From positions 1 to 23,322 of the IMG/VR virus record IMGVR_UViG_3300044691_000231: a DNA stretch of 23,322 bases. One strand, given 5' to 3'. This document shows, one piece after another, positions 3,463 through 23,271 of the stretch. Both the position numbers and the translations under genes were made by a program. How positions within the stretch are numbered: position 1 is the first letter of the stretch; every line of letters starts with the position of its first letter. The DNA comes from a virus. The notes under the pieces are model-generated. The model worked only from the letters and a program-made list of their open reading frames with translations. It was not told the DNA's origin and searched no databases.

Positions 3463-3467
3463 CGCGG

Positions 3468-4577
3468 TCAGGCCTCGACCTTCGGTCCCATCTGCGAGCC
3501 GTTCACGTCGGTTCCGACCATGCCGGTGCTGGTGGCCGGATTCAGTTCGAACATGTCTAGCCAGTCAGAATAGGTCTGGTTCGTATAGTGATCGCGGCCG
3601 GTGACGGTCGTTCCACCCATCTTCAGGACGTTGCGGTAGATGCGTTGGGTCGCGTCGTCCTGGCGCACCGAAGCGCGAAGCTGCAGGGCGCGGACTGGCT
3701 GCGATCCGAGGTTCGGGTCGGGCGCGTAGAGATCGAAATCGTTGACGGTCCCGTCGGCCGCATACTTGGCGTCGCTGCGGAGCGTATTCACGACCGCCTG
3801 GTAGTTCGCCCCGGCCCCAACTGGCGTGAACATGGTCGAAGACCCGGCGCCGACCATGAAGCCGCTCTTCACGCGGACCTTCCCCAGGTAGGTATTATTG
3901 ACCGAGCCCTGGTCGTCATTGACGTTCAGGTTGTCGATGAAGAAGCTGAAGCTGCCCACCCCGATGCCCTCGCTTTGAAAGCCCGCGGCGATGGAATCGA
4001 AGTAGGCGTTCCCGGTGTTCTTGGTGTTGATCGACGGGACGGTGAGCACCGGCACAGTGTTGACGCGCACTGCGACAAAACCGGCCGTTGGGTCGATAAA
4101 GGTTCCGAGTTCCAGCCGAAACCACGTGTCCAGCAGATAGGCGCCGAGCTTCGACGTTCCGATCGCCGTGCCGCCATTCGGATAGCCCCGATACATCCTC
4201 AGAACGCCGTTGGGGCGGAACTGAATCGTGACCTGCGGGGCATCATTGACGCCGTCGTAGAAGCCGATCCAGCAGAACGAGGCTAGGGTGGCGGCCGGAA
4301 AATAGACATCGGCGCCGATGAATCCTGTCGCTGCAGTTATGCTGGCTTCGGCGTCCAGGGGATGCACGAGATGATAGCCGCCCGCTGCCGTTACGAGGCT
4401 GCCGGTGATCTGAAGGCAACTTCCGAAGCCGTATGCGCCTGGACTTGAAACACCCGGCGTCCCGCCAGCGGTGTCGCGCCGGAGATACCAGCCCGCAGCC
4501 GACAACATGGCCTCGTTGGTCGCGGCTGATTGGCCGAGCGGAAGATGCTCAAACCCGTCGTGAAAGCGCGCAGTCAT
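3468..4577 (-). CDS. Lectin-like (concanavalin A fold) tail structural protein
   Basis: The 369-residue product begins MTARFHDGFEHLPLGQ, the FxDGFE opening I associate with concanavalin A-like beta-sandwich phage tail proteins. It continues with many short beta-rich segments such as GFIGADVYFP, WIGFYDGVNDAPQV, LRMYRGYPNGG and TWFRLELGTFIDPTAG, then FSFFIDNLNVND. The C-terminal third (YLGKVRVKSGFMVGAG to the end) looks like a separate structural segment. No catalytic motif is evident. The gene sits between the tape measure, whose TGA it overlaps as ATGA, and DUF2460. This slot holds no such gene in the Rhodobacter GTA cluster. A role in tail decoration or receptor/glycan binding is inferred from the fold call, which needs a structure search. 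Confidence 0.6.
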   Translation of the reverse strand: MTARFHDGFEHLPLGQSAATNEAMLSAAGWYLRRDTAGGTPGVSSPGAYGFGSCLQITGSLVTAAGGYHLVHPLDAEASITAATGFIGADVYFPAATLASFCWIGFYDGVNDAPQVTIQFRPNGVLRMYRGYPNGGTAIGTSKLGAYLLDTWFRLELGTFIDPTAGFVAVRVNTVPVLTVPSINTKNTGNAYFDSIAAGFQSEGIGVGSFSFFIDNLNVNDDQGSVNNTYLGKVRVKSGFMVGAGSSTMFTPVGAGANYQAVVNTLRSDAKYAADGTVNDFDLYAPDPNLGSQPVRALQLRASVRQDDATQRIYRNVLKMGGTTVTGRDHYTNQTYSDWLDMFELNPATSTGMVGTDVNGSQMGPKVEA

Positions 4578-8891: not shown

Positions 8892-9638
8892 CTAGGCCGC
8901 GTAGGCGAAGCTGAAGGTTCCGAGGTTGTCGGAACTGTCCGTCGCGGCCATGAAGCCGAAGCTCGGCTTGTCGAAGTCGCCTTGCTTGGTGGAGAAGCTG
9001 AAGTCGGTGGCGATGGCGTTGTTGAGCGTCAGCACGTCCTGCTGGGTCCCGTACATGAAGGCCATCACCGCCGTGAACGCGCCGGCCGGCCCCTGGAGGG
9101 CGTTGGCGAGCGCCAGCTTCTCGCCGACCGCAGAGGCGGTGTAGAGATAGCTGATCAGCATGTTGAAAGTCGTATCGGCCGCGGCGAAGGTGTAAACGCC
9201 TGCTGAGACGGAATACTGGCCGGTTGTCGGCGAAGAGGCGACACGGGTGTAGACGGTTCCGTCGGTCTTCATCACGCCTAGGTCGGTCGTCCAGGTGGCG
9301 CTATTGGTGACCGTGATCTGATAGGGCGTCGTAGGGACGGTTCCAGCTTCCTTATCCGCCTGGAGAATCTGACCTGAGGACCCGGAGGCGTTGAACAGGT
9401 AGTCGCCCAGCATGCGGACGTTGGGGGCGCCCATGCTCACCTTGCCGGTGATCGACATCTCGCCGGCCGCGATCGCGACGGCGAACTTCTTCTCGCCGAA
9501 GAGTTCCTTCGTCGCCTGCTTGAAGTCGATCGACATGTCCTGCTGCACATAGGTGCGCGCGGGCGTCGGGTTCGAGACGTTGTTGATGCCGAAAAAGCGG
9601 CCGGCGCCGAAGGTCGGCTTTCCGTTGACTGCGGGCAT
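8892..9638 (-). CDS. Major tail tube protein
   Basis: The 248-residue protein begins MPAVNGKPTFGAGRFFGINN and contains TYVQQDMSIDFKQATKELFG then EKKFAVAIAAGEMSITGKVS. This pattern is common in tail tube proteins of long-tailed phages. Residues about 100-169 hold a beta module (TVPTTPYQITVTNSATW, QYSVSAGVYTFAAADT), and LQGPAGAFTAVMAFMYGTQQ follows. The C-terminus (DFSFSTKQGDFDKPSFGFMA, FSFAYAA) ends in beta strands. It should polymerise as the tube between connector and tip. ATG 9638 has GAGGA about 8 bases upstream. The same module recurs in the connector gene at 11386-11595. Confidence 0.82.
   Translation of the reverse strand: MPAVNGKPTFGAGRFFGINNVSNPTPARTYVQQDMSIDFKQATKELFGEKKFAVAIAAGEMSITGKVSMGAPNVRMLGDYLFNASGSSGQILQADKEAGTVPTTPYQITVTNSATWTTDLGVMKTDGTVYTRVASSPTTGQYSVSAGVYTFAAADTTFNMLISYLYTASAVGEKLALANALQGPAGAFTAVMAFMYGTQQDVLTLNNAIATDFSFSTKQGDFDKPSFGFMAATDSSDNLGTFSFAYAA
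9132..9341 (-). repeat. Beta-module copy in the tail tube protein, related to 11386-11595
   Basis: Residues 100-169 read TVPTTPYQITVTNSATW and VYTRVASSPTTGQYSVSAG then VYTFAAADT. The copy in the connector protein has the same skeleton: TVPATPFQVTVTQAATF, VRVASGPTVGQYSVSAAG and VYTFAAADT. The two copies match by eye along their whole length, with short length changes. Confidence 0.82.
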
Positions 9639-10676: not shown

Positions 10677-11176
10677 CCGTTCGCCTCAGTCGCAGCCTTG
10701 GCGACGACAGCCTCCAGCCTGGCGATGATCTCCGGCGCCATCTCCGCCAGCGGGCCGCGCTCGAACGCGTATTCCGCGATGTCCGGCGTGCGTGTATAGG
10801 CGTCGACCATAACCATCTCGGGCTCGGCCAGCTTCGTTGACCAGTAGTGATCCAGCTTCATGCTGTGGGCCGCGACCTTGGTCGCCCGGTGGGCGCCGTA
10901 TTCCAGCGCGCCGGCCTTCGCGAAATCCTGCGATCCTTTGGTCCCGGCGATGTCGATCTGGCCGGTGATGCGGTTCGGATCGGTGAACAGCCGGGCGCGT
11001 TCCTGGCTGCGCAGGGCCCCGGTGCGATCTGGCGTCACAGATTCAATGCGGGCGAGGAGTTCCAACGTCAGCGCGTCGACCTCGACGCGGAGATCGCTGT
11101 AAAGCACGTCCGGAAAGGTCTCGAAGAGCAGCTCGACCTTGCGGGCGTCGGTGATATTGGCGTGGATCGCGTCCAT
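10673..11176 (-). CDS. HK97 gp10-like head-tail / tail protein
   Basis: The 167-residue product fits the HK97 gp10-like family. It has a helical N-terminus (ELLFETFPDVLYSDLRVEVD), then TPDRTGALRSQERARL, then a GALEYGAH segment, and a helical end MAPEIIARLEAVVAKAATEA. The TGxLRxS-like block followed by EYGxH is characteristic of this family, which acts in head-tail joining or as a minor tail component. The start ATG 11176 overlaps the TGA of the connector gene (ATGA), and the stop overlaps the ATG of the next gene in the same way. The three genes therefore look translationally coupled. Confidence 0.8.
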   Translation of the reverse strand: MDAIHANITDARKVELLFETFPDVLYSDLRVEVDALTLELLARIESVTPDRTGALRSQERARLFTDPNRITGQIDIAGTKGSQDFAKAGALEYGAHRATKVAAHSMKLDHYWSTKLAEPEMVMVDAYTRTPDIAEYAFERGPLAEMAPEIIARLEAVVAKAATEANG

Positions 11177-12075
11177 CAGGAGACGACGGGTACTTTGTAG
11201 TTGTCGAGCATCCCGGCGATGCTGGGTGGGAAGGGCCCGGCCTGTCCCGGCGCGCCGCCGAACCAGAATCGCTCGGTGCCGAGGCCGGGGGTGTCCCGCT
11301 GGATCAGCGACGGGTCCCGGCCCTTGGCTCGGAAGCGCGCCGTGATCAGTTGCAGCGTCGCGTCGACGAGATCGCTGGGAACGCTAATCGTGGCATAGGC
11401 GAAGGTTAGCGCCTTGCTGGTATCTGCTGCGGCGAAGGTGTAAACCCCGGCCGCGCTCACGCTGTACTGACCGACCGTCGGGCCGGACGCGACGCGCACC
11501 AGAGGCAAGCCCGATGAGACGTAGCTGACCTGCTGGTCGCAGGAGAACGTCGCGGCTTGGGTCACGGTCACCTGGAATGGCGTCGCCGGGACGGTATGCG
11601 CCTCGCTCACCGCGGCGCCGTAGCCGCCCGAGTACCGCACTGCGACCGGGAGCGCTTCCCAGGCGCTGACTGTGCCGGTGTCCGAATTCAGGCGGTAGAT
11701 CTCTCCGGTGGCGTAGTCGACCCGAAAGTCGGTGTTCTCGACCAAGCTCAGCGGCGCGTTTTGGCCGACCAGGCTGATGACCACTGACGTGACCGCCAGG
11801 ACCGGCCAGCGGCTGAGCTGGAGCACGCATTGGCCGTTGGGGACCTGATAGCGGGCGCGACGGATGTCAAACAGGTCTTGCACGAACTCGGGCGCGAACA
11901 CCCGGTTGGTGTCGTTCATCACCGCGCTGGACACCTGACCCAGGGCGCGCGTCAGCCAAGCATCGTTCCCCGTGTCGCCGGCGTCGACTTCGAGTTCGTC
12001 CTTCACCGTCGCGAGATCGGTCAGGTTGTAACTGGCCGCCGAGGAAAGCACGGTCGTGATGGGCTCGTTGCTCAT
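11176..12075 (-). CDS. gp6-like head-tail connector with an inserted beta module
   Basis: The 299-residue product has the N-terminal LTDLATVKDELEVDAGDTGN helix pair, then WLTRALGQVSSAVMNDTNRV and VLQLSRWPVLAVTSVVISLV. It continues with GEIYRLNSDTGTVSAWEALP and VAVRYSGGYG, then SVPSDLVDATLQLITARFRA and the DTPGLG end region. These are hallmarks of the HK97 gp6-like connector family. Between RYSGGYG and SVPSDL, where other members have a short loop, a 70-residue beta module is inserted (residues 161-230). The connector ring sits below the portal and accepts the tail. ATG 12075 follows the stop of the small Cys protein by 12 bases. Confidence 0.82.
   Translation of the reverse strand: MSNEPITTVLSSAASYNLTDLATVKDELEVDAGDTGNDAWLTRALGQVSSAVMNDTNRVFAPEFVQDLFDIRRARYQVPNGQCVLQLSRWPVLAVTSVVISLVGQNAPLSLVENTDFRVDYATGEIYRLNSDTGTVSAWEALPVAVRYSGGYGAAVSEAHTVPATPFQVTVTQAATFSCDQQVSYVSSGLPLVRVASGPTVGQYSVSAAGVYTFAAADTSKALTFAYATISVPSDLVDATLQLITARFRAKGRDPSLIQRDTPGLGTERFWFGGAPGQAGPFPPSIAGMLDNYKVPVVS
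11386..11595 (-). repeat. Beta-module copy in the connector, related to 9132-9341
   Basis: Residues 161-230 of the connector (TVPATPFQVTVTQAATF to TFAYATI) align with residues 100-169 of the tail tube protein. Shared blocks are TVP-x-TP-[FY]-Q-[VI]-TVT, VASxPTxGQYSVSA and VYTFAAADT. The copy falls exactly between the GGYG strand and the VPSDLVDA helix of the connector family. Confidence 0.82.
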
Positions 12076-12087
12076 TGCCGCGCTCCC

Positions 12088-12345
12088 TCAGTCATCGAAT
12101 GGGGGCGGCGGTGGCGGCTTCGAGGGGTCGCCCACCTCGTACCATCGCCCCTGCGGGCCGCAATAATCGAAGATCGTTGCCCACCAGCCGAAAACGCTGC
12201 GCTGGCTTTCGGCGCGGTTCGTGACGCGTAGGCGCGGCTCTTGGGCGCCCACCAAAAGTTCGGCGCGCGTCGGTGGCGCCCACTTCCGAGGCGATGCGCA
12301 ATAATAGCCGCGCTGATAGAATTGGCAGTCCGTGCAGAGGCGCAT
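12088..12345 (-). CDS. Small cysteine-containing phage protein
   Basis: This 85-residue protein starts MRLCTDCQFYQRGYYCASPR and has a later FDYCGPQGRWYEVGDP. The pattern of C-x-x-C, then C-x-x-P, then CGPxGxW[YF]E, resembles a widespread small phage protein with probable zinc-binding Cys residues. C4, C7 and C16 plus C62 are candidate ligands. A run of prolines precedes the FDD end. Its ATG overlaps the TGA of the GDP-mannose dehydratase gene as ATGA. It lies just before the connector gene, but no function is known to me. The zinc-ribbon idea is inference from the Cys spacing. Confidence 0.68.
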   Translation of the reverse strand: MRLCTDCQFYQRGYYCASPRKWAPPTRAELLVGAQEPRLRVTNRAESQRSVFGWWATIFDYCGPQGRWYEVGDPSKPPPPPPFDD

Positions 12346-13634
12346 CAGGCGGCGGCTTGTTGCGCGCTGGCCTCGACGGCGTAGTCGTCCGCGGGGTCAT
12401 AGGGCCGACTGTTGAGGCCAACGAGGACGCTGCCCTTCTTCAGGACGAACCAGTGCGGCGTGCCGGCCTCGACGGTGTAGAGCTTGCCGATCTGCATCGG
12501 CACGGTCTCCTCCGGAATGCCCAGGACCATGTCGCCCTCGCCTTCCGATAGGATGAACAGTTCGTCCTTCTTGGCGTGGTAGTGGCCGCCGATCACCGTG
12601 TCTTCCTTGACCGTGAGCACCTTGCCTTCCGGAAAGCTCTGAAGGTCCCGTCGCTCGTCGCTGTGAAACGTCGGCGTCGGCGCGAGCTTCGCGATCTCTG
12701 CGTCGACCATGATCCCGACCAGTTCGGCGAACTTGACCTTGGGCTCGAAGCCCAAAACCCGCTTGGATTTGCTGGCGTCGCCGCAGAGTAGGTCGACCTC
12801 TGCCGGGCGGGTTAGGTCATGGTCGTAGTCGACATGAGCGCGCCACTCAGCGATCCCGGCGTGCGCGAAGGCGGCCTCGACGAACTCCTCGACCGAGCGG
12901 GTCTCGCCGGTGGCGATCACGAAGTCGTCCGGCTCCGGATGCTGCATGATCCGCCAGATCCATTCGACGTACTCGGGCGCGTAGCCCCAATCGCGCTTGG
13001 CCGAGAGGTTGCCCAGCACCAGCTTGTCGCGGGCGCCGGTTGCAATCTCGGCAACCGCCTTACAGACCTTGCGGCTGAGGAAGGCTTCGCCGCGGCGCGG
13101 GCTCTCGTGGTTGAACAGGATGCCGCAGGAAACCCGGGTTCCGTAGGCTTCTCGCCAGACCTTGGCGAGGTGAAAGGCGGAGACCTTGGACGCGCCATAG
13201 GGTGAGCGCGGATAGAAGGCGGTCGTCTCGGTCTGCGGCGTCTCTTGCACGCGCCCGAACATCTCGCTGGAACAGGCCTGGTAGATCCTGGCATCGAGCC
13301 CAAGGGTCCGGCAGCTTTCCAGGATGCGCAGCAGGCCCCCGGCGTTGATGTCCTGCGTCACCTCGGGGTGATCGTAGCTATCGCGGACCTGCGACATGCC
13401 CGCGAGGTTGTAGATCTCGTCGGGCTGGACCGCCTGCAGGATGCGGAACAGGCTGGGCCCGTCCGTCATGTCCCCGGTGTGCAGCATGATCTGGTCGCGG
13501 ATCGCCGCAAGGTTCGAGAGGTTGGGCTGTGAGACGCGGCGCACCATGCCGTGCACGTCGTAGCCCTTGGAGAGGAGCAGCTCGGCTAGGTAACTGCCGT
13601 CCTGCCCCGAAATTCCAGTGATGAAGGCACGCAT
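12345..13634 (-). CDS. GDP-mannose 4,6-dehydratase fused to a cupin domain
   Basis: The 429-residue protein starts at ATG 13634, MRAFITGISGQDGSYLAE, with AGAGGA about 7 bases upstream. An upstream in-frame start at 13682 lacks such support. The first about 320 residues are a GDP-mannose 4,6-dehydratase. The GISGQDG loop binds NADP, CSSEMFG holds the catalytic Ser region, YGASK is the Tyr-x3-Lys pair, and RDWGYAPEYVEWIWRIMQ is a family motif. It would convert GDP-mannose to GDP-4-keto-6-deoxymannose. Residues about 322-407 are a cupin: HYHAKKDE with E following gives HxH(x4)E, and AGTPHW supplies the last His. The cupin could isomerise or shape the keto-sugar product, which is inference. It lies with the glycosyltransferase gene inside the head module. 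Confidence 0.86.
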   Translation of the reverse strand: MRAFITGISGQDGSYLAELLLSKGYDVHGMVRRVSQPNLSNLAAIRDQIMLHTGDMTDGPSLFRILQAVQPDEIYNLAGMSQVRDSYDHPEVTQDINAGGLLRILESCRTLGLDARIYQACSSEMFGRVQETPQTETTAFYPRSPYGASKVSAFHLAKVWREAYGTRVSCGILFNHESPRRGEAFLSRKVCKAVAEIATGARDKLVLGNLSAKRDWGYAPEYVEWIWRIMQHPEPDDFVIATGETRSVEEFVEAAFAHAGIAEWRAHVDYDHDLTRPAEVDLLCGDASKSKRVLGFEPKVKFAELVGIMVDAEIAKLAPTPTFHSDERRDLQSFPEGKVLTVKEDTVIGGHYHAKKDELFILSEGEGDMVLGIPEETVPMQIGKLYTVEAGTPHWFVLKKGSVLVGLNSRPYDPADDYAVEASAQQAAA

Positions 13635-13640
13635 CGGTAA

Positions 13641-13656
13641 TCCTCTGTCGGGAGGG
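13641..13656 (-). repeat. Leader repeat copy 1 upstream of the GDP-mannose dehydratase gene
   Basis: TCCTCTGTCGGGAGGG (plus strand) is identical to 14940-14955. On the minus strand it carries the AGAGGA ribosome binding site of the downstream gene. An 11-base GTCGGCCCGGG also repeats, at 13723-13733 and 14968-14978. Confidence 0.82.
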
Positions 13657-13666
13657 TGGGGTCGAC

Positions 13667-13690
13667 GGGACCGGACCGACATCCGGTCCC
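13667..13690 (-). other. Intergenic hairpin with 9-bp stem
   Basis: GGGACCGGA and TCCGGTCCC pair perfectly around a 6-base loop. No U-tract follows on the minus strand, so it is not a standard intrinsic terminator. It resembles the hairpin at 15722-15747, which shares the GGGACCGG/CCGGTCCC arms. It may stabilise or define mRNA ends, which is inference. Confidence 0.7.
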
Positions 13691-13741
13691 ATCTGGTCAG
13701 CGCTGACGTGTCGTCCCAGGAGGTCGGCCCGGGTTCCTTGC

Positions 13742-13768
13742 GGCCTGGCTCCGGCTAACCGGAGGGCC
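13742..13768 (-). other. Hairpin just after the methyltransferase-like/glycosyltransferase stop
   Basis: CTCCGG and CCGGAG form a 6-bp stem with loop CTAA. Outer GGCC segments can pair across a 3-base bulge. It starts 6 bases after the TGA at 13774-13776. No U-run follows on the minus strand. Confidence 0.5.
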
Positions 13769-13773
13769 TTTGC

Positions 13774-14931
13774 TCACTTCCAAACGTCGTCCGGGACGCC
13801 GGTCTTCTGGAAGTCGCCCATCGACTGATGGAAGGTTTCCAGGTTGATATCCGGCCATTTGACCTGTAGCTCGGCGTGGCCGATGGCGACGCGGTTGGCG
13901 AGGTGCAGCGAAAAGCCCTGCTCCTCCCACTTCCGCCAGAACTGGATGTCCTCGTCGATATGCCCGTCGCCGTCTTTCCACTCGCCGGCGGCGGACGGCA
14001 CGGAATGGAACCACGGCTTCGGCAATTGCCTGAGCTTCTCGGTGCGGATCAGCGTCAGGCCGAAGTGCGCCGTGTGGATTGGCATGGTGTCCGGCGCCAT
14101 ATCGGTGCGCCTGATCAGCGGCTCGTTGCCGTCGTCGCCCCTCACCGTGAACAGCGTCGACTTCAGGTGCCGGGACGACTGGATCGGCGCCAGGGCGTCG
14201 ATCTCCGGATGAAGCATCATCAGCTGCATCAGGGTCGCCAGATGCTTCGGCGTGAAGATCGAGTCGTAGTCAACGGCCAGGATGCAGTCGGTGTCGCCCT
14301 CGTCCAGGATGTGCTCGAAGACGTTGGTGAGCGACTGGCCCCAGAACGCGCCACCGTGCTTCTTGAACCTCACATTGCAGGCGACCGCCGCCTCGATGGC
14401 GCAGAACATGTTGTCGGTGAAACCGAGGCGAGGGACGCTCATGGCGCCGGTGACGCGAAGCTCGCTCTGGTGCGGCTTGTAGCCCTCAAGGTTGAGCGAA
14501 ATCGGGAAGGCCGAGCAGTCGTCGATGTCGGCTTCCCACGGTCGCAGCAGCACGAGATCGCAGGCCGAAAACAGGCGCTTCAGCTTGTCATGATCGAAAA
14601 GCGCCTGGTGATAGTCGTTGGCGTCCGTCTGGCCGCCTAGCAGCCAGCCCTCTGTCGGCTGGGCCGCGCCTTCGAGATAGCCGGTGGCGATCTTCGCGAA
14701 GTCAGGGACCGCGATGCGAAGGTGCCCACCCTTCTTCAGGGCGCGCACCCAATCCTTCAGCACCGTCTCGACCTGGCCGTGCGGGAAGTGCTCCAGGACG
14801 TGCGAAGCGACGATCTCATCGACGCTCTCGTCGGCGTAGGGCAGCGGATAGATTTCGGAGCCATGGCCGCGGCCGAGCGGCACGAAGCCTGGACGCGGGA
14901 TTTCCCCCGCGCCGAGATCGAGTTTGAGCAT
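13774..14931 (-). CDS. Methyltransferase-like / GT-A glycosyltransferase fusion
   Basis: The 385-residue protein starts at ATG 14931 (MLKLDLGAGEIPRPG) with AGAGG 9 bases upstream. A longer frame from 15084 would add an Arg-rich stretch with no support. Residues 1-168 resemble a class I methyltransferase of the COG4627 kind: LDLGAG, then ADESVDEIVASHVLEHFP, then LKKGGHLRIAVPDF. The acidic ribose-binding residue usually found after motif I is not visible (PLGRGHG), so it may be inactive or reshaped. Residues about 170-385 look like a GT-A glycosyltransferase: WGQSLTNVFEHIL, then DYDS at 221-224 (DxD-like), then DEDIQFWRKWEEQGF and the GH at 351-352. It may glycosylate a virion or host surface target using sugar made by the neighbour. 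The target is unknown. Confidence 0.76.
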   Translation of the reverse strand: MLKLDLGAGEIPRPGFVPLGRGHGSEIYPLPYADESVDEIVASHVLEHFPHGQVETVLKDWVRALKKGGHLRIAVPDFAKIATGYLEGAAQPTEGWLLGGQTDANDYHQALFDHDKLKRLFSACDLVLLRPWEADIDDCSAFPISLNLEGYKPHQSELRVTGAMSVPRLGFTDNMFCAIEAAVACNVRFKKHGGAFWGQSLTNVFEHILDEGDTDCILAVDYDSIFTPKHLATLMQLMMLHPEIDALAPIQSSRHLKSTLFTVRGDDGNEPLIRRTDMAPDTMPIHTAHFGLTLIRTEKLRQLPKPWFHSVPSAAGEWKDGDGHIDEDIQFWRKWEEQGFSLHLANRVAIGHAELQVKWPDINLETFHQSMGDFQKTGVPDDVWK

Positions 14932-14939
14932 TTCGTCGG

Positions 14940-14955
14940 TCCTCTGTCGGGAGGG
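14940..14955 (-). repeat. Leader repeat copy 2 upstream of the glycosyltransferase gene
   Basis: TCCTCTGTCGGGAGGG is identical to 13641-13656 and contains the AGAGGA ribosome binding site read on the minus strand. Next to it, 14961-14978 can form a CCCGGG/CCCGGG 6-bp hairpin with loop TGTCGG. Confidence 0.82.
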
Positions 14956-14986
14956 GGAAGCCCGGGTGTCGGCCCGGGACTGATCG

Positions 14987-15202
14987 CTATTCGGAGGCGG
15001 CCTCGGCGCCCTTCGCCTTCGATTTCGGCTTGGCCTCAGCCTCAGGCTCAGCGCCGTCCTCGAATTCACCCGCATAGGCTTCATCGAGGATGGCGTTGGC
15101 CGTCCCTACGGCCGCCTTGACGTGATGCGGCTCGGCGTCGTGGCGGCCGCTGAGCAGGGCGGCGGCGATGCTCGCGACGTGGACGTGATTGTGTTTCGCC
15201 AT
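14987..15202 (-). CDS. Small Ala/Lys/Glu-rich protein of unknown function
   Basis: This 71-residue protein begins MAKHNHVHVASIAAALLSGR and has a helical segment GTANAILDEAYAGEF. It ends in an Ala/Glu/Lys-rich tail (EAEAKPKSKAKGAEAASE) that is probably disordered. I do not recognise a family. ATG 15202 is preceded by GAGGG at 7 bases, overlapping the end of the decoration-like gene, and the two genes are 4 bases apart, which suggests coupling. It might be a small head or assembly protein, since it sits with the capsid genes. This is location only. Confidence 0.66.
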   Translation of the reverse strand: MAKHNHVHVASIAAALLSGRHDAEPHHVKAAVGTANAILDEAYAGEFEDGAEPEAEAKPKSKAKGAEAASE

Positions 15203-15206
15203 CGGC

Positions 15207-15671
15207 TTAGCCCTCGACCAGGTTCAACACGCCGGCCTTGGCCGCCGTGACGGGCGCCTGCTCGGCCCTAAAGCCGTTGGCGTTGACCTGGAAGGTCTGG
15301 GTCGTGGTCGGCGAGATCACGAGGTTGAGGTAGCGCTTGCGCGACCGGCAATCGACGTTGAACTTGTAGGCGTTGATGCCGGTGGTCTTGCCGATGGCGA
15401 CGACGAAGTCGACGTTGGTCGCCGTGGCCGAACCGCCGCGGAACCCGACGCAATCGGCGAAGGTCGACGCGACGGTCGTATCGCTTTCCTGGATCTTGAG
15501 CACGGACGGCGAGCCGGCCTGGGTCGAGGCGGATTGCGTCGTGGCCGAGACGTCGATGGTGACGAAGTCGACGCCGAGCGTGTCGATGTTCGAGCTGGTG
15601 AAAGTGCCCGCGTTGGTCGCCGAGCCTGCGCCGGTGACGGAATCGAGCACGAGTTTGCCTTGCGGAAGCAT
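15207..15671 (-). CDS. Probable capsid decoration or minor head protein
   Basis: The 154-residue product is beta-rich: MLPQGKLVLDSVTGAGSATN, then VDFVTIDVSATTQSASTQAG, then FADCVGFRGGSATATNVDF, and KFNVDCRSRKRYLNLVISPT near the end. It has no catalytic motif I can see. Proteins of this size and style often follow HK97-fold major capsid genes in phages, where decoration proteins stabilise the shell. That role is inference from order and composition. ATG 15671 has a strong GAAGGAG ribosome binding site 7 bases upstream. A hairpin (15722-15747) and a T-rich stretch lie between it and the second capsid gene, which may separate their RNA levels. Confidence 0.65.
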   Translation of the reverse strand: MLPQGKLVLDSVTGAGSATNAGTFTSSNIDTLGVDFVTIDVSATTQSASTQAGSPSVLKIQESDTTVASTFADCVGFRGGSATATNVDFVVAIGKTTGINAYKFNVDCRSRKRYLNLVISPTTTQTFQVNANGFRAEQAPVTAAKAGVLNLVEG

Positions 15672-15765: not shown

Positions 15766-17079
15766 TTACGGGGATTTCGCCGCCACGAGCGGACCGGCGT
15801 TGGTGTTGTCGCCGAGGTCGTGGTTGTTGATGTCGAAACGCTCCGTGCCAAGCAGGCCGATCTGGTCGCTCTCGAAATAACGATGGTCGGAACGCTTCAT
15901 CGTGACGCCTCGACGCTCTCCGAGGGCCGCAGCCTTGTTCAGGTCGCCGAAATAGAACATCGGCTTCCCGGAGCCAGGCGTGGCGACCGGCAACTTCTGC
16001 GCGATGACGACGGGATAGCCGAGGAGCCGCTTCGCAGGGCCCTCGGTGAGGGTATCGATGCGGTTGCCGCCAGCGCTGCCGGTGATGGTGGCCACGATCG
16101 AATAAAACGCCTGCTGCGACATATACCACTTGGCGTTCGCGGCGGCGTATTCCGGCAGGACGCCCATGACGCCGGTCAGGTCCTTCAGGACCATAGACGT
16201 CCACGTCGCCGAGGAGACCTGATACTGGCCGGCAGTGTGGTTGCCGTCCTGGAACAGCGTGGTGAGCCCGCGGATGCCGCCGTAGGTCGAGGTCCCATCG
16301 CCGTTGAAGCCGCAGTCGTCCTCCTTGGCGGCGAAGGCGTAGGCGATTTCACCGACCAGCCAATCCGCGACCGAGACGACCGCGTCCTCGGCGATTTCGT
16401 TCGACATGCGGGTCAGCGCGCCGATCTTTTTGGCCGTGAGATTGATGTTGTCCCACGTCGCCTGCGACTCGGTGATCGCAGTGTTCTCGCCGGTGAAGAA
16501 GGCGGTAAGGCCGCCGAGGCGGCGCGGCCAGTTCAGGGTGTCGCTGCCCATCGGCACGACCTGACATTCGCGGCGGTAGACCCCGAATTGCTCGCGAAGG
16601 ACGATAATCGTGGCCATCAGTTCCTCGGGAACGAGGAAGCCGCCAGCCGAGTCCACGCCTTCGCCCTGAGCCTTGGTCACAGCGACGCCGCGCGCCTTGC
16701 ACCACTCCATAGCTTCGGAGTTGTTGAATATCGTCGCCTTGAACCACTGGCCCACGGTGAAGGCTTGGTCCACGGCCCGAACCATTTGGCCGTCGATCTC
16801 GCGATCCTGGAAGTTCTTGATCTGACCGTAGAGTTTGTGGGCGCTGGGCGGCGCCGTCGGGGTCATGCGGTCCTGGCCAGCCACGGGCTGAGCGAGGTTG
16901 CGCGCTTCGGTCGAGGCCTCCTCGGCCCGCGAGATGCGCTGCTTGATCTCAGCGATCTCGACCTTCAGAGCCTCGTAAACGTCCTCCTTGAAGCCGTCGG
17001 CCTCGGACTTGCCGGCCATCGCCTCCAGTTGATCGACAGCCGCACCGAGCTGTGCCTTCAGTTCATGAATCTTCGCCAT
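15766..17079 (-). CDS. Major capsid protein 2, HK97 fold with N-terminal delta (scaffold) domain
   Basis: The 437-residue protein begins with a coiled-coil delta domain (HELKAQLGAAVDQLEAMAGK, then EALKVEIAEIKQRISRAEEA) over about residues 1-65 and a linker to about 105. HK97-type heads use such a domain as an internal scaffold that the protease removes. The shell part has the HK97 order: AQGEGVDSAGGFLVPEELMA, then FGVYRRECQVVPMGSDTLNW, AKEDDCGFNGDGTSTYGGIR, and late RSDHRYFESDQIGLLGTERF with HDLGDN. ATG 17079 has GGAG 8 bases upstream. It resembles the capsid homologue at 18451-19512, which lacks the delta domain, and is likely the main shell subunit because it has the scaffold. Confidence 0.93.
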   Translation of the reverse strand: MAKIHELKAQLGAAVDQLEAMAGKSEADGFKEDVYEALKVEIAEIKQRISRAEEASTEARNLAQPVAGQDRMTPTAPPSAHKLYGQIKNFQDREIDGQMVRAVDQAFTVGQWFKATIFNNSEAMEWCKARGVAVTKAQGEGVDSAGGFLVPEELMATIIVLREQFGVYRRECQVVPMGSDTLNWPRRLGGLTAFFTGENTAITESQATWDNINLTAKKIGALTRMSNEIAEDAVVSVADWLVGEIAYAFAAKEDDCGFNGDGTSTYGGIRGLTTLFQDGNHTAGQYQVSSATWTSMVLKDLTGVMGVLPEYAAANAKWYMSQQAFYSIVATITGSAGGNRIDTLTEGPAKRLLGYPVVIAQKLPVATPGSGKPMFYFGDLNKAAALGERRGVTMKRSDHRYFESDQIGLLGTERFDINNHDLGDNTNAGPLVAAKSP

Positions 17080-17215
17080 TGTTTGGCTCCATCTATTTGG
17101 GAATGGCGCGTCTCTCGACGGGCCGGTTAGCGCGGTGCCAAGGCGCGCGTGTCAGGCAGAGCGGCGCGCAGGGGCGACGCCCGATCTCGGTTGTCGGGAA
17201 ACCCGAGAAATTCAG
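17080..17215 (-). other. 136-base gap between the protease and the second capsid gene
   Basis: No gene is supported here. On the minus strand it carries the GGAG ribosome binding site of the capsid gene. A weak 5-bp pairing (CTCGG with CCGAG, near 17190-17213) is the only structure I see. No convincing promoter or terminator is visible. Confidence 0.5.
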
Positions 17216-18439
17216 TCAGTCGTTGAGCGGAAGCGATGCCCTGAGCTCGCGGGCTTCCTTCATCCGGCGCTCTTCGGGCGACAGGTATTCCGGCACGTCC
17301 GAGCCGGGAGGCTCCGGCGTCAGTTCGTCAGGATCCTCGTCGTCGTCCGGTTCTTCGTCGTCGGGCTCGCCCATCAGGCCCTCGATGCACTTCGTCATCG
17401 CCTCATCGTGCGGCGCCGCAGCGGCCTTGCCGGCGGCGGCGTGGTCGAGCGCCTGCTGCAGCTTCGCCTTGGTAGCGGCGGAGACCCGGCGCCCGGCCTT
17501 GGTCGCAAGGCTCACGACAAGCTTCATGGCTTCTGGCGTCGGCGTCTTCAGGGCCTCCGCGACGGCGGCTTCGAGGGTTTCCGCGTCGTCGCCGGTTTCG
17601 ACAGCAGGCTCGTCTTCGGCGCTGTCCGTTGTCGCGGCTGGCGCGTCGCCGACAGTGCGCAGCGTGAAGCCCGGTTCGAGGACGAGCACCTCGCTGGGGT
17701 CAGCCTGCCATCCCTTCACGGCGTCGCGCACCCGTCCGGCCGCCTCGGCGCTCAAGGCCTTGTCGGACTGGATGTAGAAGCGCCGCTCGACCGCGCCGGC
17801 CTGGCCGCGAAGGGCTTCCAGGTCCTTGCGGGGCATGAACACGGTCTCGCCGCTGTCCAGGACCTTCTCGGCCCATTCGACCAGCGGGCTGGTGTCGATG
17901 CCGACGCTGCGCGCCTCGCCGAGAGCCGCCGGATTGCAGGGCACCGGGCAGACACTGATTTCGAGCAGAAGCTGCTCTTTGAAATCGATGCCGTAGGGCC
18001 GGTCCTTGTCGTTGCTGAACGACCATTTCTTCGGCAGGAAGCCGACACTGACCGCCTTCAGGTAGCCACCGTCGACGAGCCGATAGATGGTGTCCGCGAA
18101 ATCGTAGACCTCTGGCGGTGCGAACTCGATATCGCCGGCCAGCTTGCCGCCGGAGACCTTCACGTTGGACGCTCGACCGATGGGCGGATCCCACGACATA
18201 TGGCTGAAGAGCGCGACGGGGTTCGACTCGAAGACGTCGAGTTGCCAGCCCTTCGGGTCGATGCTGTCGTCGGAATGATCGACCGTCGCATCGCTGAAGA
18301 CGAACCGCTTGGTGCGGGCCCTCACCTCGCCGACGGTCTCGGGCTCGGTCGTCGAGAACTTGAACAGCATGCCCTCAGGGCGCTCGCCGTCCTTGGCTGC
18401 GGTTCGAAATTCGTCCGCGGTCAGAAGCTTCGTAGGCAT
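17216..18439 (-). CDS. Prohead protease (HK97 gp4-like, U35 family) with long acidic C-terminal extension
   Basis: The 407-residue protein carries the U35-type serine protease in its first about 175 residues. H80 lies in NPVALFSHMSWDPPIGR, S131 in KAVSVGFLPKKW, and E160 in LEISVCPVPCNPAA, matching the family's His, Ser and acidic motifs. It should cut the delta domain from capsid protein 2 during maturation. Residues about 200-250 hold FYIQSDKALSAEAAGRVRDA, then VLVLEPGFTLRTV, as a separate domain. The C-terminal 150 residues are Ala-rich then acidic (EPDDEEPDDDEDPDELTPEP), a scaffold-like composition. Many HK97-type proteases are about 200 residues, so the tail doubles the length. ATG 18439 has GGAG 7 bases upstream. 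Confidence 0.88.
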   Translation of the reverse strand: MPTKLLTADEFRTAAKDGERPEGMLFKFSTTEPETVGEVRARTKRFVFSDATVDHSDDSIDPKGWQLDVFESNPVALFSHMSWDPPIGRASNVKVSGGKLAGDIEFAPPEVYDFADTIYRLVDGGYLKAVSVGFLPKKWSFSNDKDRPYGIDFKEQLLLEISVCPVPCNPAALGEARSVGIDTSPLVEWAEKVLDSGETVFMPRKDLEALRGQAGAVERRFYIQSDKALSAEAAGRVRDAVKGWQADPSEVLVLEPGFTLRTVGDAPAATTDSAEDEPAVETGDDAETLEAAVAEALKTPTPEAMKLVVSLATKAGRRVSAATKAKLQQALDHAAAGKAAAAPHDEAMTKCIEGLMGEPDDEEPDDDEDPDELTPEPPGSDVPEYLSPEERRMKEARELRASLPLND

Positions 18440-18450
18440 CTGGAAACTCC

Positions 18451-19512
18451 TTACGGCGCGACGAGGACGGCGAGGCTTCCCGCCGTCGAGTTGTCGCCAA
18501 GGTCATGCAGGACAGCGTCGAACCGCTCGGTGCCGAGGATGGCGATCTGATCGGTGTCTAGGTAGCGGTGGTCGCTGCGCGCGATGGTGAGCCCGCGCCG
18601 CTGACCCAGGACCGCGGCGCCGTACATGTCGCCGAACGCCAGCATGGCCTTGCCCGTCAGGGTCGTGGAGATCAGCGGCAGCTTCTGGGTCATGATGACC
18701 GGAAAGCCGTTGTAGAACGGCGTCGGCACGCCATCGACTTCGCCCACCAGAAGGGCGCCGGACGTGCCGGCCAGGCGTTCGAACGTCTGGCCGAAGCCGG
18801 TGACGCTCACGAACCACGCCGCCCGCGGGAGCGCCGAGGCGCGGACGCTGGCCACCAGATTGCCAAGGTCCGTACTGTCGAGCGTCAGAAAGGTGTTGTG
18901 GGCGACAGCGGCGGTGACCTTGGCGATGCCGTGGGCACCGTCGAGGGCCAGGAACCCCGCGCCGCGGATACCTCCATAAGTCGAGGTGCCATCGCCGTTA
19001 AAGGCGCAGTCATCTTCCTTGGCGGCCAGCGCCCAGGCGAGTTCGTTGGCGACATAGTCGACCAGATCGAAGATGGAATCCTCATCCAGCTCGCTTGACA
19101 GCGTGACGAGCGCGCCCAGCTTCTTCGCCGTGAGTTGAACGCCGTCCATGTTGGTGCTGGTGCTGGCGCCCGTCGCCGCTGAGGCGCCCTCGGTCAGAAA
19201 GTACGCAGCGGCGCTCCCGGTGCGGCGCGGGAACAGCGAACTGTCCGAGCCCATCGGCCAGACGCAGGCGCGGCGGCGGAACGCGCCGAAGCTGTCGCGT
19301 AGGTCGAGGATCGCGCGTTCGAGCGTAGTCGGCGTGAGGAAGCCTCCGCCGCTGCCGATGCCCTCCGACGCCGCCTTGCGAATGGCGACGCCCTTCTTAT
19401 CGCACCAGTCGCGCGCGTCCTTGCGGCCATACACGGTGGCGAGCAGCCACTTGCCGGCGCGCTCGTACAGGTCGTCGACCTCCGGGCCGGAGCCGGGAAA
19501 TGCTCGCTTCAT
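18451..19512 (-). CDS. Major capsid protein 1, HK97-fold homologue without a delta domain
   Basis: This 353-residue protein is clearly a paralogue of the capsid protein at 15766-17079. Shared blocks include EGIGSGGGFLTP, RRRACVWPMGSDSSLFPRR, LTAKKLGALVTLSSELDEDS, AKEDDC, FNGDGTSTYGGIRG, and RSDHRYLDTDQIAILGTERF then HDLGDN. It starts about 85-90 residues further in, near EVDDLYERAGKWLLATVYGR, and so has no scaffold domain. ATG 19512 is preceded by GAAGGG about 9 bases upstream. It lies between portal and protease, where a capsid gene is not usual. It may be a minor shell subunit, a vertex-specific variant or a duplicate kept as an alternative capsid. That is inference. Confidence 0.9.
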   Translation of the reverse strand: MKRAFPGSGPEVDDLYERAGKWLLATVYGRKDARDWCDKKGVAIRKAASEGIGSGGGFLTPTTLERAILDLRDSFGAFRRRACVWPMGSDSSLFPRRTGSAAAYFLTEGASAATGASTSTNMDGVQLTAKKLGALVTLSSELDEDSIFDLVDYVANELAWALAAKEDDCAFNGDGTSTYGGIRGAGFLALDGAHGIAKVTAAVAHNTFLTLDSTDLGNLVASVRASALPRAAWFVSVTGFGQTFERLAGTSGALLVGEVDGVPTPFYNGFPVIMTQKLPLISTTLTGKAMLAFGDMYGAAVLGQRRGLTIARSDHRYLDTDQIAILGTERFDAVLHDLGDNSTAGSLAVLVAP

Positions 19513-19538: not shown

Positions 19539-20861
19539 TCAGTCTTCGGGGGCCGCGTCGCTCGGATCGTCGACAGCGACGGGATCGCCATGGCCGCCGG
19601 GTGCGGGTTGCCCCGTCATGTCGCTGCCGGGGCCGGTCTCCGAGCCGGTGGGCTCAAATCCGAGCGGCGCCATGTTGGTCGGCTGGTAGAGCTTGTCGCC
19701 GTCTGGATCGTCCGGCAGGCCCTCGGCGCGGCGCGCTTCGTTCGGCTTGATGAACATGCCGGAGATGCCGGCGCGATAGGCTTGATATCGGACCATCAGC
19801 GAGGCCCGGGTCAGGGCGGAGACATCGAACTCGACGAAGAGTCCGTCGGCGGACAGCCCGAAAACCTGATCCAGCTTGGCTTCCCAGCGGCAAATATCGC
19901 TGGTGATCACGTCGTTGGCGTAGTCCTGGTTCATCTCCGGGATCGAGGCCCCGGCGCCCCGCTCGACGACACCCAGCTTGTGCATCGGCATCCGGTAGAG
20001 CCGCGCGATCTCCTGGACCTGCATGTTGCGCGCCGCGATCATCTCGGCGTCGCGCGCCGTCATGCCGAGCGGTTGCCATTTCAGGCCCTGCTCGAGGACC
20101 GCAGTGTCGCCGGCATTGCGCAGACCCTGCTTCGTGGCCTTCCATGCCGTCTTGAGGCGCTCGCCGGCTTCCTTGGTCAGTTTCTGGTCGGTCGAAAGCA
20201 CGCCGCCGAGGTTGGTGCTGTTGGCCGAGAGCCGGCCGGCCAGTTCCTGCTGCGACAGAGCGAGACCGATGGCTTCGCGGGCCAGGCCGATGCGCGACGC
20301 CCCGTAGAGCGAATTGTCGAGCGCCATCCAGCGCAGGTGAAGCATGTCCTCCGATGGGATCATCAGGGACATAGATGCCAGAACGGCGGTTTCGTGCATG
20401 CCGTGGCGGGCGACCTGGTAGAAGACCTCGCCGCCCGGCGCCTCGTAGATCCGCACCCGGTCAGGGTTGACCGGAATGAGGCTGCTGACGCGCCCGCGCC
20501 CATCGCGCAGGATCACCGCATAGGCGTTGCCGCGAAGCATGATGCTGACCTGCATCTGCTCGACGAACTCGAAGCGGCTCTGGTCGCTGTTTGGCGCCTG
20601 CAGAACGCGTTCAAGCGGGTTATCGGCGACGATCTCGCGCCCACCGTCCTTCCGCCTCCGGTAGACGTGCACCGGCAGCTTGGCGACATCCTCGGCACGG
20701 ATCGAGACGCAGGCCTGGACCGTGGAGACCTGCAGCGCGCTCAGCTGCGTGACCGCCATGCCGCCGGAGCTGGTCGAGGTGGGGCCGTATTCCGACCACC
20801 ACTCGTCGATCGACATGGCGCCTTTGGAGGTCGGCGCCGCCAATCGGCTGAGGAAGCTCAT
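19539..20861 (-). CDS. Portal protein (HK97 family)
   Basis: The 440-residue protein has the HK97 portal layout: SALQVSTVQACVSIRAEDVA, then KLPVHVYRR, RFEFVEQMQVSIMLRGNAYA, PVNPDRVRIYEAPGG, IPSEDMLHLRWMALDNSLYG, MTARDAEMIAARNMQVQEIA followed by RLYRMPMHKLG, and IKPNEARRAEGLPDDPDGDK. It forms the dodecameric ring for DNA passage and binds terminase and connector. A disordered Gly/Pro/Asp-rich tail ends the protein. ATG 20861 overlaps the TAA of the membrane-protein gene as TAATG, with GGAAGGG about 7 bases upstream. A longer frame from 20957 adds an unlikely N-terminus. Confidence 0.93.
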   Translation of the reverse strand: MSFLSRLAAPTSKGAMSIDEWWSEYGPTSTSSGGMAVTQLSALQVSTVQACVSIRAEDVAKLPVHVYRRRKDGGREIVADNPLERVLQAPNSDQSRFEFVEQMQVSIMLRGNAYAVILRDGRGRVSSLIPVNPDRVRIYEAPGGEVFYQVARHGMHETAVLASMSLMIPSEDMLHLRWMALDNSLYGASRIGLAREAIGLALSQQELAGRLSANSTNLGGVLSTDQKLTKEAGERLKTAWKATKQGLRNAGDTAVLEQGLKWQPLGMTARDAEMIAARNMQVQEIARLYRMPMHKLGVVERGAGASIPEMNQDYANDVITSDICRWEAKLDQVFGLSADGLFVEFDVSALTRASLMVRYQAYRAGISGMFIKPNEARRAEGLPDDPDGDKLYQPTNMAPLGFEPTGSETGPGSDMTGQPAPGGHGDPVAVDDPSDAAPED

Positions 20862-21063: not shown

Positions 21064-22842
21064 TTAGAGGATCAGGAGCCCTCGCTCCTCGTAGACCGAG
21101 CGAGGAGACTCGGGATTGGCAGCCATCACGGCGACAGCATCGAACAGGGCCATGGCCGGGTCGATCTTGGCGTCGCCGGCATTCTGCTTGGTTGCCCGGA
21201 CCGCGGTGGCGGTCGCCTCGATCTTCAGGTTGGCGACACACCAGTCCATCAGCGCCTGGTCAGCATGGACAAGCGTGCCGTTGGCCAGTTTGCGCTCGGA
21301 GGTCTTCAGCGCGTTCATCATGGCGTAGCCCTGCGGGGCGCCGATCACGTAGTTCGCGCCCGACTCCCGGTTCTCCTGAACGACGCCAATTTCCGCCAGG
21401 GCGTCGATCATCTCGCCAAGGCCGGCCGGGTCGACAGCCACGCAGCAGAGCAAACCAGCGTCGCGGATCTTGACGATGATCTCGATGATCTGGGCGATAT
21501 CGGCCGGCAGTGAGTCGACCATCTCGCCGTCGTCCAGGATGGTGAGGTCGCCGGCCCTCTCGAAGTCCTCTAGCTGGGCGGCGATCGACTTGCGGCGCTC
21601 CAGCACGATCCGGTGCGCCCAGGCGTGGCTCCAGGAGAGCCAGCGCTTGATGCGCTTCTTGCCGTCGACCGGCTCCTGGGTGTCCTCGGGCGCGGCCTCG
21701 GCGGCCACCTCAATCTCTTCGGACTCTCGACCGAGCACCGTCAGGCCGTAGAGGTCGTCCAGCCCTCCGCCGTCCAGCCCGACTACGATCACCTCGCTGC
21801 GGGCGATAATGTCGTCAAGCGTCAGGCGTTTATCCGCGCGACGTTTCCAGAACTCGGCGCCGGCCCAGCTGTCGGATCGCCCCGCCATGCCGGGCTCGAC
21901 GTTCAGATGTTTGGCGAAGAAGCCGACGAGGGATTTCTGGCCCTCGCGGAGCGCCTTGTCGTACTCGTCGAGCAGAAACTGATTATCGACCGAGGCGCCC
22001 AGGTTCGGGTTCGGGATGTAGAAGGTGGCCCGGTCCTTGTAGGCCTCCGACTTGATCATCTCCTCGGGGTATTCGTAGAGCAGCCCCAGCGACCGCGGCG
22101 CGACCAGCTTGCCATCCCGGATGTCGCGGAAGCGACGCAGCCAGTCCAGAAAGACGCCGGCCGGCGGTTCGTCACTCTGCGTCGAGAGCGCTATGACGAA
22201 ACCTTCGGGGCGGCTAGCCAGGCCGCCGTAGGCCTCGCGCAGCATGTTCTTCGCCTTGGCGCGCTTTCCGAACATCCAGAGTTCGTCGATCAGGACGCCG
22301 GTGGCCTTCATGCCCCCGACGGTTTCGGAGTCCGCCGCGACGATCTTCAGTTGGGCGCCCGTCGAGCGGTGCTCGATCAGCCGCTGGTGAGCGACCGGCT
22401 TCAGGATCCGGCGCAGTTCGGGATGCTCTGCCACGAAGTCCATGGCCGGTTCGGCCGAGTTCTTGGCGACCTCCAGCGTTGGAGCGAGAATGATAAATTC
22501 CGCCGAATTGCGCTCGTTGCGCACCAGCTCGGTGATCATGATGCCGGCGGCGCGGGTGGACTTGGTGTTCTTCTTTGCGATGAGCTCGAAGAATTCGTTG
22601 ATCTCACGGCGGCCAGTGGCTGGGTTGTAGGATCCGAACACCGCGCGCGGCAGGTCGAATATCCAGTCCCGCCCGATCTCGCCGAAGGTCGGCTTGCCCA
22701 TCACGTCGACGATGGGCAGGTCCCGGAAAACCTCCAGCGCGGCCGCGGCTTCGTCAGGAAACAGCGGCCCGCATGGCAGAAGCGACCGCCCCTCGACGAT
22801 GCGCTCCTTCCAGTCCGGACAGGCCGTCGACCACGAGGCCAC
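21064..22842 (-). CDS. terL: Terminase large subunit
   Basis: The 592-residue protein has ATPase and nuclease parts. A Walker A-like stretch IAKKNTKST lies at about 88-96, a Walker B VLIDELW at about 183-189, and an adenine/coupling-type ALSTQSDEP near 218. The nuclease part begins VIVVGLDGGGLDDL at about 351 with acidic D357 and D363, and a late FDAVAVMAA carries the third acidic residue. This matches the HK97/YmfN-type Terminase_1 family, which cuts and pumps DNA into the head. The GTG start at 22842 follows directly on the TAG of the small subunit, and GAGGAGG lies about 6 bases upstream. The spacing to its ribosome binding site supports this start. Confidence 0.94.
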   Translation of the reverse strand: MASWSTACPDWKERIVEGRSLLPCGPLFPDEAAAALEVFRDLPIVDVMGKPTFGEIGRDWIFDLPRAVFGSYNPATGRREINEFFELIAKKNTKSTRAAGIMITELVRNERNSAEFIILAPTLEVAKNSAEPAMDFVAEHPELRRILKPVAHQRLIEHRSTGAQLKIVAADSETVGGMKATGVLIDELWMFGKRAKAKNMLREAYGGLASRPEGFVIALSTQSDEPPAGVFLDWLRRFRDIRDGKLVAPRSLGLLYEYPEEMIKSEAYKDRATFYIPNPNLGASVDNQFLLDEYDKALREGQKSLVGFFAKHLNVEPGMAGRSDSWAGAEFWKRRADKRLTLDDIIARSEVIVVGLDGGGLDDLYGLTVLGRESEEIEVAAEAAPEDTQEPVDGKKRIKRWLSWSHAWAHRIVLERRKSIAAQLEDFERAGDLTILDDGEMVDSLPADIAQIIEIIVKIRDAGLLCCVAVDPAGLGEMIDALAEIGVVQENRESGANYVIGAPQGYAMMNALKTSERKLANGTLVHADQALMDWCVANLKIEATATAVRATKQNAGDAKIDPAMALFDAVAVMAANPESPRSVYEERGLLIL

Positions 22843-23271
22843 CTAGCCCTCCTCGACTGGAGCGCCTCCGACCACAGCCAGCCTTGGCGCGGTGCGAGTG
22901 GAGAACCGGCCGCCGGCTGCAACCGCCGCGTCGGCGTCCGCCTGCGCCGCCGCCTTCTTGCCGGTCTTGGGTTCGACGGATCGCGCCGACTCGGCGGCGC
23001 CGACCCCGCGGCCCATCTCTTCCAGCTTCTTCTGGGCTGTGACGTTGCCCTTTTTCGCGGCGTCGAACAGGTAGCCCACAACCTCGCCGCGGCGATTGGC
23101 GTGGCCATCGGCCAGTTCATCGTGGAAGTGCTTCTTGAGCGTGTCCTCGTCGATGCCGATTGCACGGGCGATGACCGTTACCGGCTCGGCGCAATATCGC
23201 ATCTGCTCGACCAGTTCGCGCTGCTTAAGCGTCGGCTTGAAGGGCGGCCGACCTCGGCTTTTTTCGGGCAT
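22843..23271 (-). CDS. terS: Terminase small subunit
   Basis: The 142-residue protein begins MPEKSRGRPPFKPTLKQREL with a helix-turn-helix region: AEPVTVIARAIGIDEDTLKK then HFHDEL. A helical GYLFDAAKKGNVTAQKKLEE follows, and the rest is Ala/Lys-rich and likely flexible. This fits a DNA-recognition subunit that binds the packaging site and recruits the large subunit, whose gene follows at once. ATG 23271 has GAGG about 7 bases upstream. No terminase-specific catalytic motif exists, so the call rests on the helix-turn-helix and on the adjacent terL. It is the first gene of the minus-strand operon in the window. The 51 bases beyond it show no clear promoter. Confidence 0.82.
   Translation of the reverse strand: MPEKSRGRPPFKPTLKQRELVEQMRYCAEPVTVIARAIGIDEDTLKKHFHDELADGHANRRGEVVGYLFDAAKKGNVTAQKKLEEMGRGVGAAESARSVEPKTGKKAAAQADADAAVAAGGRFSTRTAPRLAVVGGAPVEEG

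Follow-up and report, generated by a model that had tools for sequence, protein, structure and literature searches.

The window, meaning the whole stretch of DNA that we analyzed, comprises 23,322 bases and comes from IMG/VR, where it is listed as a virus record. Its minus strand encodes, in this order, a probable small terminase subunit (TerS), the large subunit (TerL), the portal protein, a capsid protein termed MCP-A, a maturation protease, a second capsid protein termed MCP-B, and a 154-aa protein, with adaptor, tape-measure, and tail-assembly genes coming later (Table 1). An earlier note on this DNA had described two HK97-fold major capsid paralogues flanking a single protease, and we indeed found the three open reading frames (ORFs), with matches of both capsid proteins to the Phage_capsid family (PF05065) and of the intervening ORF to prohead proteases. 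The 154-aa protein had no family match in Pfam or PHROGs searches.

Table 1. Features of the window and of elements carrying a scaffold-less capsid gene (positions are those of the respective sequence)
Feature	Position	Strand	Basis or remark
Probable terminase small subunit	22843-23271	-	phrog_12540, 3.5e-21 (unknown function); phrog_309, weak, 0.006; position
Terminase large subunit	21064-22842	-	phrog_9, 3e-105
Portal protein	19539-20861	-	PF04860, 1.3e-91; upstream of MCP-A, 26-base gap
MCP-A, 353 aa, HK97-fold capsid paralogue without N-terminal coiled-coil (delta) domain	18451-19512	-	PF05065, 4.8e-33; phrog_10 (major head protein)
MCP-A short prosegment, residues 1-46, up to predicted site K46/A47	19375-19512	-	Alignment with MCP-B and HK97 mature chains; putative cleavage
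Prohead maturation protease, 407 aa, between both capsid genes	17216-18439	-	PF04586, 8.7e-05; phrog_80, 1.2e-22
MCP-B, 437 aa, full-length HK97-type capsid protein with scaffold domain	15766-17079	-	PF05065, 9.7e-48; phrog_10, 4.1e-64 (residues 1-418)
MCP-B delta (scaffold) domain and linker, residues 1-136, up to predicted site K136/A137	16672-17079	-	HK97 alignment, predicted helices
154-aa protein adjoining MCP-B downstream, candidate decoration protein	15207-15671	-	Kept in nearly all relatives; MCP-B-like codon usage
Scaffold-less capsid gene preceded by ~200-aa gene, L156	7336-9047
Same, L157	4119-5778
Same, L182	8232-9972
Same, L184	8289-9945
Same, L112 and L186 to L189

Further genes of the window drew our attention. 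The head module includes, at positions 12345 to 15084, one gene resembling GDP-mannose dehydratases and another encoding a fused methyltransferase/glycosyltransferase; the fusion gene has the same location in most relatives, distant single-capsid ones included, and this conserved position suggests a sugar modification linked to the head. The head-tail adaptor (11176 to 12075) and a probable tail protein (8892 to 9638) have a domain in common (phrog_8234), as if one module had been inserted twice, and a tail-region protein (2368 to 3462) begins with near-identical repeats of the type LRVPLVVEEPLTEGAA.

We then compared the two capsid proteins. MCP-A and MCP-B are 43% identical over 334 residues (E value, 5e-96), far beyond chance, and they score 115 and 163 bits, respectively, against PF05065, whose curated cut-off is 24.2. 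The AlphaFold model of MCP-A (pLDDT 86.7) has the HK97 fold; its best solved matches among the top 50 listed by VIA-align were the capsid proteins of RcGTA (Z 19.3) and of the cf-PICI EcCI2 (Z 18.7), and HK97 proheads matched with Z 15 to 16. The MCP-B model was poor (pLDDT 60.8) and was left out of the fold comparison. Gene conversion between the two genes was considered and rejected, as MCP-A and MCP-B are equally identical within and between genomes (0.448 versus 0.444). Radical differences between them at conserved sites number only 10, without clear concentration in the A-domain.

The two proteins differ mainly at their N termini. About 90 N-terminal residues of MCP-B, with predicted long helices at residues 2 to 22 and 32 to 62 (in a model of low overall confidence), are absent from MCP-A, in agreement with the claim that the upstream capsid protein lacks the coiled-coil delta domain. 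The MCP-A frame is closed ∼4 codons 5' of the ATG (the stop-to-stop ORF has 357 aa, versus 353 aa for the protein), so no longer MCP-A can be read from the DNA, and a hidden longer form is ruled out. In HK97, the cleavage site is K103/S104 and mature chains start at S104. Residue 3 of these mature chains aligns to residue 139 of MCP-B, and mature MCP-B is therefore expected to begin near residue 137, with a cut near K136/A137. The ATG of MCP-A corresponds to about residue 91 of MCP-B and 46 residues precede the homologous site, so the earlier note was mistaken in placing the start of MCP-A where processed MCP-B begins. From the alignment, K46/A47 of MCP-A is the predicted cleavage site equivalent to K136/A137 of MCP-B and K103/S104 of HK97. 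Within the respective families, K46/A47 (31 MCP-A sequences) and K136/A137 (26 MCP-B sequences) each show conservation of at least 85%; MCP-B has both the delta domain and the predicted site, and MCP-A keeps the predicted site without the domain. An R-A-F-(x)-G-P motif marks the start of MCP-A proteins; this breakpoint is identical in every relative, and in single-capsid kin the motif is internal to longer capsid proteins, just after the scaffold domain.

We collected relatives by scanning IMG/VR with MCP-A and MCP-B. Of the related contigs, 38 distinct ones extend across the two genes, and every one of them carries both, in the order portal-MCP-A-protease-MCP-B or the part of it present on the contig; six contigs with MCP-A alone end before MCP-B, and three with MCP-B alone begin after MCP-A. 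Across these contigs, identity to the window proteins is 53 to 80% for MCP-A and 58 to 78% for MCP-B and falls to ∼40% for the portal and TerL, and the pair has therefore persisted through wide divergence. The gap between portal and MCP-A is ∼10 to 55 bases in most loci. MCP-A is open in every full-length relative, so we did not see the broken upstream gene that the earlier note had named as evidence against its reading, and dN/dS is ∼0.28 for MCP-A and ∼0.22 for MCP-B. Both capsid genes are under purifying selection, and the pair is neither an accident nor a decaying copy. In single-capsid near kin (L099, whose portal is 61% identical, L100, and L102 to L106), the portal adjoins the protease and MCP-A is absent where the contig shows the region. 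Searches of whole records found two capsid genes in genomes of 58 to 98 kb (58 to 62 kb, and one of 98 kb) and one capsid gene in the single-capsid kin searched, including a 57.7-kb genome. Among phage records, we found no two-capsid phage (best matches, <60% identity), and the pair was found neither in plasmids nor in the genomes sampled around Bradyrhizobium.

A few relatives carry additional ORFs in this region. Read by eye, ORFs directly after the MCP-A gene resemble homing endonucleases, of the GIY-YIG type in L021 (8996 to 10048) and HNH-like in L095 (988 to 1893) and L113 (3596 to 4501). In L027, ∼3 kb of extra ORFs lie between portal and MCP-A (2140 to 5189), two of them with repeated acidic motifs of the "SITEADDTVA" type.

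To place MCP-A, we analyzed a tree of 71 capsid proteins based on the mature domain. MCP-A formed one clade (support, 100/99) and the MCP-B proteins of two-capsid phages another (97/85), with the single-capsid kin grouping with MCP-B (100/97). Trees with MCP-A and MCP-B as sisters were rejected (AU test, P = 0.014 and 0.022), so the recent duplication for which the earlier note had proposed a phylogenetic check did not hold up, and MCP-A falls in a separate lineage of scaffold-less capsids. It groups with scaffold-less capsids (100/93) that are encoded either by chromosomal elements (three genomes of the Bradyrhizobium group and one Hyphomicrobiales bin) or on IMG/VR contigs, and the truncation point at the R-A-F motif is common to both. 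The best tree nests MCP-A inside this group (99/94); a tree with the scaffold-less elements as one clade was not rejected (AU test, P = 0.13), so transfer in either direction would fit.

The elements in the same clade as MCP-A, namely, those of Bradyrhizobium and Hyphomicrobiales (L156, L157, L182, and L184) and the IMG/VR contigs L112 and L186 to L190, differ from the two-capsid phages in having this capsid gene only, with a ∼200-aa gene directly before it; we found no MCP-B partner in them. The ∼200-aa gene overlaps the capsid start in several elements, and nine copies of its product form one profile family that matched nothing in Pfam or PHROGs. This helical protein is probably a separate scaffold. 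In some elements, we found no capsid gene besides the scaffold-less one, so the lineage is not inherently restricted to pentamers, a point that counts against the vertex reading proposed below. L156 and L182 carry VapE, and L156, L157, and L188 carry an integrase. We considered the Bradyrhizobium elements as satellites, given the presence of integrase, VapE, and TerS, but did not keep this assignment, since related contigs have tape-measure, tail-assembly, protease, and TerL genes; these elements may be prophages. A PF04860 portal was not found on the five element contigs tested, which are mostly fragments. In two relatives of the window, L091 (about 2943 to 3248) and L101 (27 to 494), a ∼110-aa helical ORF lies directly before MCP-A. 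By BLAST against a small set, it resembles the L112 helical protein (8e-5), but this likeness lacks profile support (0.14), and we set it aside as a weak lead to a relic scaffold gene. MCP-A might have been captured by an ancestor of the phage from a foreign scaffold-less lineage, might have lost its own scaffold gene, and might have become an obligate subunit riding the delta domain of MCP-B, a scenario that we regard as possible but rather doubtful.

Codon usage provided a proxy for copy number. With a score trained on MCP-B versus TerL, portal, and protease, with one locus left out at a time, MCP-A resembled the protease (P = 0.67) and the portal (P = 0.08) and was unlike MCP-B (P = 3e-8, 26 loci); the gene of the 154-aa protein, which was outside the training set, scored like MCP-B. 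This result suggests that MCP-A is produced in smaller amounts than MCP-B. Shine-Dalgarno strength disagrees: across loci it is, if anything, slightly greater for MCP-A (−5.9 versus −4.6 kcal/mol, P = 0.04), although the window has the weaker value for MCP-A (−2.8 versus −5.6 for MCP-B), and the copy number of MCP-A therefore stays a guess. Comparison by segment gave a similarity between MCP-A and MCP-B of 0.30 in the A-domain, 0.51 in the peripheral domain, and 0.68 in the N-arm, and the A-domain is similarly conserved within each family (0.64 and 0.61). E-loop identity is 88% among MCP-B proteins and 48% among MCP-A proteins. The flexibility of the HK97 fold, chiefly in the E-loop, has been credited with allowing one protein to form pentamers and hexamers (2025; PMC12407261), and the loose E-loop of MCP-A would fit a subunit with a single environment.

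We propose that the head of this phage would be built of two HK97-fold subunits with different jobs. MCP-B, with its cis-acting scaffold (delta) domain, would make most of the shell as hexamers. MCP-A, having lost the delta domain, would be unable to drive assembly alone and would be recruited as a minority subunit into the MCP-B-driven prohead, most likely to form the pentamers of the eleven vertices that lack the portal, the part played by T4 gp24 beside gp23. The single protease would then cut both proteins at the homologous K/A site, leaving mature chains of nearly equal length (about 307 aa for MCP-A and 301 aa for MCP-B). We infer the presence of both proteins in the virion, the cleavage of both, and the position of MCP-A at vertices. 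The codon usage, the loose E-loop, and the missing scaffold domain favor a minority subunit recruited by MCP-B, most simply as vertex pentamers, and this is the reading that we tentatively prefer. Evidence presented here fits incorporation of MCP-A at ordinary vertices, at the portal vertex, or scattered in the shell alike.

Scattered incorporation would give a mixed shell, in which MCP-A and MCP-B enter the same capsomers without fixed positions and tune shell properties, as in two-component encapsulins. Irregular coassembly of two paralogous HK97-fold shell proteins is possible (PMC12407261), and the peripheral-domain and N-arm segments of the two proteins have stayed similar; however, the specialization of the pair, with one member devoid of the scaffold domain, the divergence of their A-domains, and the low-copy codon usage favor a dedicated position, and we hold a mixed shell to be unlikely. 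A role of MCP-A at the portal vertex, where it would nucleate assembly around the portal or replace the adjacent MCP-B, appears quite improbable: the position of its gene right behind the portal gene is invariant and its codon usage equals that of portal and protease, but gene order alone is weak evidence and, to our knowledge, there is no precedent for an HK97-fold paralogue restricted to the portal vertex.

We also evaluated functions of MCP-A outside a fixed place in the virion. Its nesting among the delta-less capsids of integrated elements (99/94 and 100/93) would be consistent with an alternative major capsid or with a factor for size or interference, such as one directed against, or derived from, capsid-using mobile elements. 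Yet MCP-A has no scaffold domain, the window shows no candidate scaffold gene next to that of MCP-A, the two genes always occur together, the codon usage of MCP-A is unlike that of a bulk protein, and two-capsid genomes are similar in size to the single-capsid one, so that such a function seems highly doubtful. The idea of a redundant, decaying duplicate or an annotation accident could draw on the ∼1.6 times faster evolution of MCP-A than of MCP-B, but it is refuted by the dN/dS of 0.28, by frames that are open and full length in every relative covering the gene, and by the constant breakpoint and neighbors, and its probability is close to nil. Among the readings offered by the earlier note, co-occurrence, purifying selection, low-copy codons, and scaffold loss thus favor a dedicated second subunit, with a vertex position ahead of a mixed shell, and speak against an alternative capsid.

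The two-capsid phages are a second, widespread set of tailed phages, unrelated to T4, with a conserved capsid pair in which the scaffold is on one member only. They offer a simpler system for studying how pentamers and hexamers are distinguished, whether a subunit that bears a scaffold can bring in one that does not, and by what route phages acquire capsid paralogues. Should the capture scenario be true, the result would be a chimeric HK97 shell of two lineages, obtained through gene capture and not gene duplication.

Among known systems, we compared the pair with HK97 itself, with Family 2B encapsulins, and with T4. The order portal-protease-capsid, the delta domain (on MCP-B), the K/small-residue site, and the fold are those of HK97 gp4-gp5, but HK97 has one capsid protein and this phage has a second, delta-less capsid gene inserted between portal and protease. 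Family 2B encapsulins (Enc1/Enc2, Streptomyces lydicus) likewise encode paralogous HK97-fold shell proteins together, and their mixed shells have been shown (PMC12407261); they are nonviral, lack protease, delta domain, and portal, and place their subunits irregularly. In T4, whose gp23/gp24 pair is the nearest match in function to the proposed one, gp24 forms pentamers at 11 vertices, has a 10-residue prosegment versus 65 residues in gp23, and originated by duplication (PMC9958956). T4 and this phage both have two HK97-fold paralogues per head, one protease, and a much shorter prosegment on the second paralogue (PMC9958956, PMC3185693), and the occurrence of such a paralogue with a shortened prosegment in the same genome is as for gp24-type vertex proteins. 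T4 differs in being a myovirus with a pair about 20% identical, a separate scaffold core (gp22), and the gp24 gene after that of gp23; unlike T4, this phage has 43% identity, a scaffold in cis on MCP-B, and MCP-A before the protease, and the virion positions proposed for its pair are predictions. gp24 was not among the Pfam, PHROGs, or top 50 structure matches listed, an absence that does not exclude homology, and the resemblance to gp24 is a functional analogy only. We would call this a two-subunit HK97 head type independent of T4. Its pair is kept by about 40 related environmental phages, which suggests shells in which each of two subunits has a dedicated role; elsewhere, such a design is documented for one virus group only, that of T4.
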